The notes under the pieces: generated by a model
What the model was told of the DNA's origin: nothing
The model's database searches: none
What the model saw: the letters and a program-made list of their open reading frames with translations, nothing else
Assembly: GCA_027486675.1 (NCBI GenBank)
Contig: JAIXOQ010000030.1
Location: forward strand, 1-64,000
Origin: Pseudomonadota bacterium
GTDB lineage: Bacteria; Bdellovibrionota; UBA1018; CAIMNF01
Direction: 5' to 3'
Length of the DNA stretch: 64,000 nucleotides
Part shown: positions 13,077 through 63,639 of the stretch, piece after piece
How positions within the stretch are numbered: position 1 is the first letter of the stretch
Layout: every line of letters starts with the position of its first letter
Translations under genes and position numbers: made by a program

Positions 13077-13151
13077 GCCAAACAAACAAGTCCCCATTTG
13101 TTCCACCCGTCAGAGTTAAGGGTTACACAAATGGGGACTTGTTTGTTTGGC
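13077..13151. repeat. 25-bp perfect inverted repeat, REP/terminator-like
   Basis: Arms at 13077-13101 and 13127-13151 are perfectly complementary over 25 bp (core CAAACAAGTCCCCATTTGT) around a 25-nt loop. It sits between the convergent globin and topoisomerase VI A genes, a typical place for extragenic palindromes and bidirectional terminators. There is no U-tract. The remaining 13152-13250 bases hold nothing recognisable. Confidence 0.65.
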
Positions 13152-40463: not shown

Positions 40464-40589
40464 TTTGAGCCCAAATTCTAACTTATTTTGTCAGGAACTA
40501 AAACCCCCTTCCCTCCAAGGCTCCTCGTTTAAAAAAATTTTTATTTAATTGCATTGCCCCAAATCAAAACCTCTGAAACAATAAGATTC

Positions 40590-41144
40590 ATGGATGGACA
40601 TCGTCTTTCTCCGAAACAAGGTTATGGCGGCACCGAAACGAAGGGACGCCGCAAGGCTGGTCGCCCCTTCGTGGGCACCCTCCCCGTTCTTTTTGTTTTC
40701 CGCGCAATCGACGCAAGGAAGGAACGATCGCTCGCCCACCGAAAGAATAAAGCCCGGGTCATGAAGCTCGTTTATGGGCTCGGCGCTCGCTATAAAATCA
40801 AGATCCTAGAATTTTCGAACGTGGGATCGAAGCTCCATGTCCTCTTAAAGGCAGAAGATCGCTACAGCCTGACCTGCTTTCTCAGGGTGATGGCTGGGCG
40901 CATTGCACAAAGCATCACTGGGGCCAAAAAGGGAGTCCGAAGAGGACGCTACTGGGCTTCACTTTGCTGGAGCAGGCTTTTAAAGAAAGGCCCCGAACTT
41001 CAGAAGATCCAGAAGTATTTGCGCCTCTTTCAAATCGATGAGCTCGCGGCATTCTTAGGGCGACATCCGGAAACGTGGAAACGACTGGGGGCAAGCGAAG
41101 TGCTCCTTCGGAGTAAACTCCATCCGGCACGAGCGGGACCTTGA
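40590..41144 (+). CDS. REP-associated Y1-transposase-like protein, degenerate HUH
   Basis: A protein of about 184 residues related to the IS200-like/RAYT single-strand transposase family. The alignment core is RPFVGTLPVLFVFRAIDARK, the HUH region KILEFSNVGSKLHVLLKAED, then LRVMAGRIAQSITGAKKG and RYWASLCWSRLLKKG, and a candidate nucleophile Tyr in IQKYLRLFQ. The first His of the usual HxH is replaced by Lys (KLH), so metal binding is probably impaired. The protein may be domesticated. The ATG at 40590 was chosen; an upstream ATG at 40554 is possible. It is a single copy in this window, near long extragenic palindromes that such proteins can mobilise. Confidence 0.6.
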   Translation: MDGHRLSPKQGYGGTETKGRRKAGRPFVGTLPVLFVFRAIDARKERSLAHRKNKARVMKLVYGLGARYKIKILEFSNVGSKLHVLLKAEDRYSLTCFLRVMAGRIAQSITGAKKGVRRGRYWASLCWSRLLKKGPELQKIQKYLRLFQIDELAAFLGRHPETWKRLGASEVLLRSKLHPARAGP

Positions 41145-61461: not shown

Positions 61462-61662
61462 AGCCACGCGGGAACAGACTTCCGCTAATTTCCCGAACCG
61501 CGCCATCCCCAACCATTTTTTCCCCACCCGGATCCTCCGAGTACGTCCTCAATTCTCTACTCATTACAAATGCGACTAAAAGCGCATGCCAGGAAGGCAT
61601 GCGCAATTCTCACGGATGAGTGCTCGGAGCATTTGTAATGAGTAGAGAATTGAGGACGTACT
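61462..61662. repeat. Structured repeat, copy A: conserved flank plus hypervariable perfect stem
   Basis: A 68-nt flank (61462-61529, starting AGCCACGCGGGAACA and containing CCGCGCCATCCCC) is followed by a 34-bp perfect inverted repeat: arms at 61540-61573 and 61629-61662. The tip between the arms contains the hairpin GCGCATGCC/GGCATGCGC (61582-61590, 61596-61604) and a CTCA-CGGA-TGAG hairpin (61609-61620). The flank and tip recur in copy B, but the 31-34-bp arms do not. The remaining 61663-61907 holds no gene. Confidence 0.7.
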
Positions 61663-61907
61663 TAGAAGAAATTAGGATGGGGAAAATGATCGCGCTGATG
61701 GCGCGCTTCCTCTAATTTTGTATCGTGTTGATTCGATTGCTTTTTTTACGCAAGCTCGGCCGAGACTGTAATGTCAGCAAAAACACCCTCCTGAAGACCA
61801 CGAACACCCCATAAATCGATTGAATTCATTAAGAGACAGCTCGGCTCGCCCGGGGCAGCATCTTCTATATTTGACCATTTTAGTACATCTGCTAAGATTC
61901 GCGAGTC

Positions 61908-63044
61908 ATGTTTGCGCAATTGTTTGTCATTCCCCTTTTATTCCTCACGGCGTTTGCGCAAACGCCTTCTTCGACTCTACCGCCAGATGAGAAACCACCC
62001 GAACTCAAGGTCTATATAGAACTTCAGTACCGGAGCCCAGAAGAAGAATTTGTCACGATTACCGCGTCGGCTTACAAGCCCATCGAATGCGACATAAATG
62101 AAAAGAAAATCCCGATCAATGGAACCCTCTCGTTTTGCGGCGACAAGTTGATAGCAAGGGCGTTAGAGGACGGGAATATCCGCTTTGAGGTCAATAGAGC
62201 AAAATTTCCTGAACTGGCGAAAATTGCGCCAATGACCGCGCGAGGCGGTCCAAAAGAATGCACAGTCGATGACTTTAAAAACCTGATCAAAAATTACCAA
62301 GAGTTCAGAGATTGGCTGACGAGCGCAGAACTGAATTATGGTTCGACTCAGCTTGAGAACTCACAACTCAAAGATATCTTTAATAAAGCGCGCAAGAACA
62401 TGATTCGCATACGCCCAGCAACTGCGTGTTACCGAATCAGCGCTCGCATTTTAGGGACTATTAAGGATCTTATCGACGAACCTGATCTTGTGCCTCTCGT
62501 CGAAGGCTCCCGCTTTGCCCTGCGAACCTCCAACGTAAAAATTCGGGAATTTCTTGATAAGTCTGTACTCATCGCAGGGAATGCTTCAGAAAAGGCATTC
62601 GAGTTTGATTATGTGCTGGAAGACTATGAAGGAACGATTGGGGGCCACGCTTTTCTATATGCATATGCCGTCGACGAGTACGGAAACATGTTTCCGTTCG
62701 AAACCGGATTTCCAATCAACACTTCGGACACATATCAGTCTCTGACAAAATTTTATGAGCTCTATTTAGGAGTGATGAAGGACATGCGTTATGGAACAGC
62801 GTCCGTCTACGGAACTGTTGATCTCCAGGGTTCGCAGGTAGACGTCTCTTTTCGCATAAGTCCGATGCCCTCACTTGCTGTCGGATTGAATCCGCAGACT
62901 AAAAGCCAGATTGGACAAGAAAGCAGTGATCCTATTTATGAGGACGCCGCCTATCCACGAGTACGCGTCTTTCAACCCATAATAACTCGTACATTCACAG
63001 TGGAGCGAACGACCTCGCGCGATACCGAAGCAACCGATGAATGA
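61908..63044 (+). CDS. Exported protein of unknown function
   Basis: A 378-residue protein with a signal peptide (MFAQLFVIPLLFLTAFAQTP). The mature part begins with a proline-rich segment and continues as a mixed alpha/beta protein (LKVYIELQYRSPEEEFVTIT, FKNLIKNYQEFRDWLTSAEL, EDYEGTIGGHAFLYAYAVDE). Several cysteines are spread through the N-terminal half. No family is recognised. Because both structured repeats flank it in the same orientation, it may be cargo of a mobile or duplicated unit (inference). Confidence 0.55.
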   Translation: MFAQLFVIPLLFLTAFAQTPSSTLPPDEKPPELKVYIELQYRSPEEEFVTITASAYKPIECDINEKKIPINGTLSFCGDKLIARALEDGNIRFEVNRAKFPELAKIAPMTARGGPKECTVDDFKNLIKNYQEFRDWLTSAELNYGSTQLENSQLKDIFNKARKNMIRIRPATACYRISARILGTIKDLIDEPDLVPLVEGSRFALRTSNVKIREFLDKSVLIAGNASEKAFEFDYVLEDYEGTIGGHAFLYAYAVDEYGNMFPFETGFPINTSDTYQSLTKFYELYLGVMKDMRYGTASVYGTVDLQGSQVDVSFRISPMPSLAVGLNPQTKSQIGQESSDPIYEDAAYPRVRVFQPIITRTFTVERTTSRDTEATDE

Positions 63045-63145
63045 GCGGGGACCGAAGGCTTCTTCGCATTGATGCCACTACAGGCTGACTACACCCGTAT
63101 TCATAAGAGCCAACCCAAGACACCCACTCGTCGATTCCTTGGATA

Positions 63146-63368
63146 AGCCACTCGGGAACATATTTCAGTTACTGTCCCGCACCGCGCCAGCCCCGACCTT
63201 TGTTTCCGTCCCCCAACCCGCAATTTCAGGAGACACACTAAGTTCATACTTCTGATCAGATGCGACTTAAAGCGCATGCCACTTCGAGGGCAGGAGCACG
63301 AGAAGGCATGCGCAATTCTCACGGATGAGTGCCCGGAGCATCTGATCAGAAGTATGAACTTAGTGTGT
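63146..63368. repeat. Structured repeat, copy B: conserved flank plus hypervariable perfect stem
   Basis: Same orientation and design as copy A. The flank (63146-63214, starting AGCCACTCGGGAACA with CCGCGCCAGCCCC) is about 80 % identical to A. The 31-bp perfect arms at 63233-63263 and 63338-63368 are unrelated to those of A. The tip hairpin GCGCATGCC/GGCATGCGC (63272-63280, 63305-63313) has a 24-nt loop instead of 5, and the CTCA-CGGA-TGAG hairpin is retained. Confidence 0.7.
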
Positions 63369-63564: not shown

Positions 63565-63639
63565 TGGTTGGCTCGACTGGTTTCGAACCAGCGACCCCTA
63601 CCATGTCAAGGTAGTGCTCTACCACTGAGCTACGAGCCA
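63565..63639 (-). tRNA. tRNA-Val (anticodon GAC)
   Basis: A cloverleaf on the minus strand: acceptor TGGCTCG/CGAGCCA, D-arm TAGCTCAGTGGTAGAGC, anticodon stem CTACC/GGTAG with loop TTGACAT, and T-arm CTGGTTCGAAACCAG. CCA is encoded (63565-63567). Confidence 0.95.

Follow-up and report, generated by a model that had tools for sequence, protein, structure and literature searches.

The window, by which we mean the whole 64-kb stretch of DNA analysed, comes from a relative of predatory bacteria and contains three perfect inverted repeats in total with arms of at least 16 bp and a spacer of at most 200 nt. Two of these form the elements called copy 1 and copy 2 below. The features discussed are as follows, with core scores referring to a broad covariance model of the core (R2).

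61462..61529, + strand: left flank of copy 1, 78% identity with the flank of copy 2
61540..61573, + strand: left arm of copy 1, 34 bp, perfect
61568..61634, + strand: conserved core of copy 1, R2 match of 84.8 bits
61629..61662, + strand: right arm of copy 1, 34 bp, perfect
61663..61709, + strand: outer right part of copy 1, pairing imperfectly with the left flank
63146..63213, + strand: left flank of copy 2, aligned with the flank of copy 1
63233..63263, + strand: left arm of copy 2, 31 bp, perfect
63258..63343, + strand: conserved core of copy 2, R2 match of 62.6 bits
63338..63368, + strand: right arm of copy 2, 31 bp, perfect
63568..63639, − strand: tRNA-Val, 3′ end toward copy 2, about 225 nt off
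40554-41144, + strand: Y1_Tnp-like (Y1/HUH-type) protein

The paired elements with perfect arms described in a first-pass annotation of this DNA were confirmed, with arms of 34 bp in copy 1 and 31 bp in copy 2, separated by 55 and 74 nt respectively. Its estimate of about 80% identity between the 68-nt left flanks corresponds to 53 of 68 positions, and the near-identical tip that it reported was found, save that the tip hairpin 1 loop of copy 2 carries 19 inserted nt. The core of copy 1 contains, in order, CTAAAAG, tip hairpin 1 (61582-61604, loop AGGAA) and tip hairpin 2 (61609-61620), with CANGGATG at 61611-61618 within the latter; tip hairpin 2 of copy 2 is at 63318-63329. An inverted-repeat pair and the predicted fold extend the copy 1 palindrome imperfectly outward to about 61495/61709, the distal part of the left flank (61495-61507) pairing imperfectly with 61697-61709. 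tRNA 3′ ends such as the one facing copy 2 are repeated neighbours across the hairpin family.

The third perfect inverted repeat, at 13077-13151, has 25-bp arms and a 25-nt loop (CCAAACAAACAAGTCCCCATTTGT...). Its loop differs, it has no match to the core model, and it is possibly another hairpin repeat or a terminator. The window encodes no reverse transcriptase, as the first-pass annotation had stated, and RVT_1 is absent from the whole genome too; an HUH-type protein, which it had proposed to seek elsewhere, is present inside the window itself, at 40554-41144. A paralogue of this protein, 78% identical, is encoded elsewhere in the genome (G000:C33:46720-47322). In both, the first HUH histidine is apparently replaced (KLH or QLH), perhaps reflecting domestication, and two more distant Y1_Tnp paralogues are found on G000:C28.

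Distribution and conserved core of the hairpin family

Further copies were sought with covariance models of the core. A core-only model (R1), built from ten copies of this genome (G000), recovered 11 copies in G000 as well as copies in three more genomes of the order. The broader model R2 identified 63 copies in five of the 55 genomes of the order, 17 in this genome and 46 in the four others (29 in G048, 11 in G020, 4 in G017 and 2 in G015). What had been taken for an isolated pair is in fact 2 of the 17 copies of this genome, and the family search supports the earlier idea of a hairpin-generating element as far as a dispersed repeat of hairpin type is concerned. Except for a few innermost pairs the arms lie outside the models, and their presence in 59 of the 62 loci extracted, at lengths of 19-87 bp, is therefore independent confirmation. 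One copy assigned to G049 matches G048:C64 in contig coordinates and in arms, and the two MAGs may have this contig in common.

No convincing copies were found elsewhere in the phylum, and model matches outside the order, which were weak and armless, were discarded. The model searches showed no second genome of the genus to which the window's genome belongs. Weak core-model matches with no long arms were seen in another genus of the phylum (G228, G240 and G241; L093, L094 and L096); L093 and L094, which are almost the same in sequence, might represent a small structured RNA of their own. Pattern scans yielded one true genome match, to a Bacteriovoracaceae MAG which is G048 (contig JAHFAB010000003.1), and no viral match. 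As a member of the Bacteriovoracaceae, G048 puts the order within the Bdellovibrionota. The nine other matches from these scans were chance-like, folding without matching arms, and were rejected. Searching Rfam to an E value of 10 returned only tRNAs and sub-threshold hairpin-type matches, and so none to a known annotated repeat family; finding such a match is what the first-pass annotation had named as speaking against its reading. A literature search found no description of the hairpin family. The dispersed hairpins form a genuine family, of which the libraries searched give no description. All carriers are draft genomes, some of them MAGs, and long palindromes are hard to assemble.

The conserved core, of about 60 nt, is situated at the tip of a long stem. 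Read from the tip outward, CTAAAAG or something close to it comes first, then hairpin 1, whose stem covaries and whose loop is mostly of the AGGA type, and then hairpin 2; the arms follow. Whichever measure was used, at most 2 of 500 shuffles and none of the slid controls reached the covariation of the core, for a structure drawn from the same sequences. The arms have a median length of 39 bp (59 elements), and in several copies they are followed by a short unmatched stretch and then an outer repeat. Relative to mechanically called open reading frames the elements are mostly intergenic, with convergent neighbours in 15 cases and divergent neighbours in 8.

The core strand is the C-rich strand in 41 of 61 loci from G000, G048, G020 and G017, and in 14 of 17 in this genome; these counts, uncorrected for gene orientation, hint at a replication-strand bias. 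At G048:C350:6796-7026 (L023) two elements point in opposite directions with about 100 nt between them; their arms, of 39 and 51 bp, are unrelated, and a short left flank is common to both. A flip of the core was at first suspected in the C23 pair, but the left and right flanks there are too alike to tell.

Hairpin 2 displays the CsrA/Rsm site CANGGANG in 58 of the 62 copies, compared with 0.84 expected from shuffles, and the site is carried on 21 flanking stem combinations. The loop equals the Rsm/CsrA motif CANGGANG described previously (PMC6849547). Many copies have a second GGA loop, in hairpin 1, and csrA is present in 53 of the 55 genomes of the order, this one included. The site in the core together with the presence of csrA makes it plausible that the core is a CsrA-binding RNA, as predicted here from sequence; the core hairpin might conceivably be recognised as single-stranded DNA. 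CsrB/Rsm-type RNAs and the TwoAYGGAY motif (RF01731) are similar in having two hairpins with GGA loops, but the core of the hairpin family sits on a dispersed repeat with long variable arms. The covariance models for TwoAYGGAY, CsrB and other Rfam families gave no such match at E values up to 10.

Arm evolution and host-gene fragments

Arm sequence, length and outer extent vary freely, while pairing between the two arms of an element is close to perfect. Among 2,496 arm pairs in 59 elements, 97.8% are Watson-Crick, and 34 of the 59 elements are without a substitution mismatch. G-U pairs account for 17 of the 54 exceptions (31%). RNA-level compensatory evolution passes through and tolerates G-U pairs. 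Judging from the types of mutation, unselected single-base changes would produce roughly a third G-U; the observed proportion therefore fits unselected mutation and not RNA-level compensation.

The relationships between arms were clearest in a 14-member subfamily in G048. In a tree of these arms every left arm groups as sister with the right arm of the same element (14/14). Identity is 98.3% between the two arms of an element, as against 81% when the same arm is taken from different elements. The two arms at a locus are thus closer to each other than to paralogous arms, the relationship expected of a template-switched quasi-palindrome. By these sequence comparisons the two arms of a locus are shown to be homogenised with each other as DNA. 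In same-genome pairs with core identity of at least 95% (n=17), the arms are at random level in 35%. The earlier description of the arms as completely unrelated between copies does not hold for the family, in which copy 1 arms can be aligned with those of C12 and C33, and copy 2 arms with those of C11 and C19. Sharing of arms with other copies, which the first-pass annotation thought would argue against its interpretation, was seen in part, as subfamilies have arms in common.

Twelve elements lie at most 130 nt from a tRNA gene, and in nine of these 7-34 nt of the tRNA gene, from the 3′ end, are inside the palindrome (tRNAs Arg, Gln, Lys, Ser, Met, Val, Pro, Tyr and Val). The longest such stretch is seen in G020:C41, where a continuous 87-bp palindrome reaches 34 nt into tRNA-Val. 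Protein-coding sequence is also found: the outer 30-bp repeat of G020:C26 encodes VTLHYLFEGD, a stretch close to the C-terminus of an AI-2E transporter. Outer repeats scoring at least 14 are present in 7 of 59 elements, compared with 0.09% of mismatched-pair controls. Only one side carries an intact tRNA or gene, which makes the opposite side the copy; the tRNA and coding pieces inside palindromes therefore indicate that host DNA has been copied in inverted orientation. Insertion with a preferred strand is suggested by the orientation of the core, antisense to the adjacent tRNA in 11 of 12 cases. An unmatched stretch of 10-25 nt separates the inner and outer matching parts in G020:C26, C10 and C4 and in G000:C19 and C15.

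In G020:C2 and G000:C1 (L136 and L005) about 35 and 22 inserted nt, respectively, break up the tRNA-derived repeat on the copy side, and the insertion in G000:C1 is itself a small hairpin (CTCTCGTTTCACGAGAG).

The proposal in the first-pass annotation that one arm is copied from the other is borne out by the greater identity within than between elements, by the pairing of all 14 left arms with their own right arms in the tree, and by the tRNA and coding ends recovered in the opposite arm. Taken as a whole, the earlier interpretation is partly supported.

Origin of the palindromes and alternative explanations

We consider it moderately probable that the family is a mobile or formerly mobile hairpin repeat in which polymerase template switching has rewritten the stem repeatedly and has sometimes lengthened it into the genes alongside. 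A hairpin or cruciform would extrude during replication, and the nascent strand would either fold back at the tip or cross the base of the hairpin, using one arm as the template for the other (quasi-palindrome template switching). Such copying would erase mismatches, so that both arms change together. Where copying overran the arm, part of a tRNA gene (7-34 nt) or of a coding sequence (about 30 bp) would be carried to the opposite side, which would explain continuous palindromes such as G020:C41. Copies with an unmatched stretch between inner and outer repeats need a jump across the hairpin base and back, because simple run-through would homogenise this stretch too. The family would have spread by transposition, often beside tRNA 3′ ends, and, more tentatively, its core may be conserved through CsrA binding of its RNA.

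The mechanism that perfects the arms is most likely a known one operating on an unusual scale. Template switching has been reported to homogenise inverted-repeat arms and to invert spacers (PMC8604942, PMC7202029), and has been proposed for the long mitochondrial palindromes of Nematomorpha (PMC6649704). In quasi-palindrome correction (PMC7202029, PMC8604942) the arms are likewise made identical by copying one another; the known cases are short local hot spots, whereas the hairpin family is dispersed and has a fixed core, arms of 19-87 bp and inverted gene copies. The Nematomorpha palindromes (PMC6649704) are also inverted repeats that are long and perfect, with arms that average 43 bp and evolve together, but they are located in mitochondrial coding genes and have no common core, whereas the hairpin family is intergenic and bacterial, with a conserved tip. 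What is new is the combination of this mechanism with a fixed core that bears a CsrA site and with nearby genes copied in inverted orientation.

The tRNA and coding ends inside the palindromes could also have been acquired at insertion, if a dedicated mobile element generated an inverted target duplication each time by folding back and self-priming from its core. Most arms would then be host DNA at birth, and later drift would render them imperfect. Unrelated arms on near-identical cores, the preference for tRNA 3′ ends and the antisense core in 11 of 12 cases are compatible with such an element, but the G048 subfamily has inherited arms that are homologous, stop at a shared GGTTACA and have no host copy, and no element-linked enzyme was found; we regard this explanation as unlikely, though still the strongest competitor of template switching. 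Equally doubtful, though possible, is a fold-back DNA intermediate, in which insertion by a gene or tRNA end would be completed by self-primed copying, giving an inverted and not a direct host duplication, with the core doubling as a CsrA-binding RNA. MITEs with long terminal inverted repeats are similarly short, non-coding, multi-copy elements with inverted ends. In contrast to MITEs, the arms of the hairpin family are more alike within than between elements, and a non-systematic look found no transposase with matching ends. No consistent target duplication was apparent on inspection of the G048 subfamily by eye, which gave one clear 4-nt candidate for a direct target-site duplication (GATT, C259); most copies had none.

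The strong core covariation with conserved GGA loops, the CsrA motif and the presence of csrA would fit a structured non-coding RNA in which selection for RNA pairing maintains the long stem, that is, classical covariation. The arms speak against it: they reach 87 bp with almost no G-U, the 31% G-U share of exceptions is about that expected with no selection, pieces of neighbouring genes occur in them, and their sequence, length and outer extent are free to vary. Selection on RNA pairing may act on the core, not on the arms, and as an account of the whole element we find it quite improbable. Mobilisation as a REP/REPIN-type repeat by a RAYT (Y1 HUH) transposase, for example the protein at 40554-41144, has slightly less to recommend it and is very improbable. 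REPs and REPINs (PMC3733652, PMC3116915) are also dispersed intergenic palindromes of bacterial chromosomes, and Y1_Tnp proteins are encoded in this genome, G048 and G015. However, such proteins occur in 70 of 97 relatives, mostly element-free, and thus do not track the element, and no core lies beside the Y1 genes examined. REPs have a stem of 5-13 bp, a GTAG or CGTC tag at one hairpin end and frequent G-T pairs (PMC3733652), whereas the hairpin family has stems of 19-87 bp and very few G-T pairs, with neither tag among the conserved columns of the core alignments.

A retron msr-msd, as suggested in the first-pass annotation, or another reverse-transcribed or guide-like RNA, shares with the family a superficial layout, a conserved region beside a complementary variable stem. 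The many dispersed copies and the neighbouring host genes inside arms argue against it, and we judge it extremely improbable. No RVT_1 protein was found in G000, G017, G015 or G048 (the richest carrier, only 76% complete), and two were found in G020; a retron served by a genomic RVT_1 reverse transcriptase is refuted by its absence from four of the five carriers. Arms acting as guides or spacers, another earlier suggestion, fared no better. Phage searches with the window arms gave no meaningful match (best E values 0.4 and 0.8, both partial), the copy 1 arm had no plasmid match, and 10 elements have the host's own neighbouring gene in the palindrome.

Copying between the arms of DNA palindromes has been described chiefly at short mutational hot spots. 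The hairpin family offers about 60 separately rewritten stems on a fixed core, some with host-gene fragments, a natural series of copying events in which the birth, correction and extension of palindromes in wild bacteria would become testable by comparing sister strains. If the core does bind CsrA, the family would in addition represent a sponge-like regulatory RNA spread by a repeat element.
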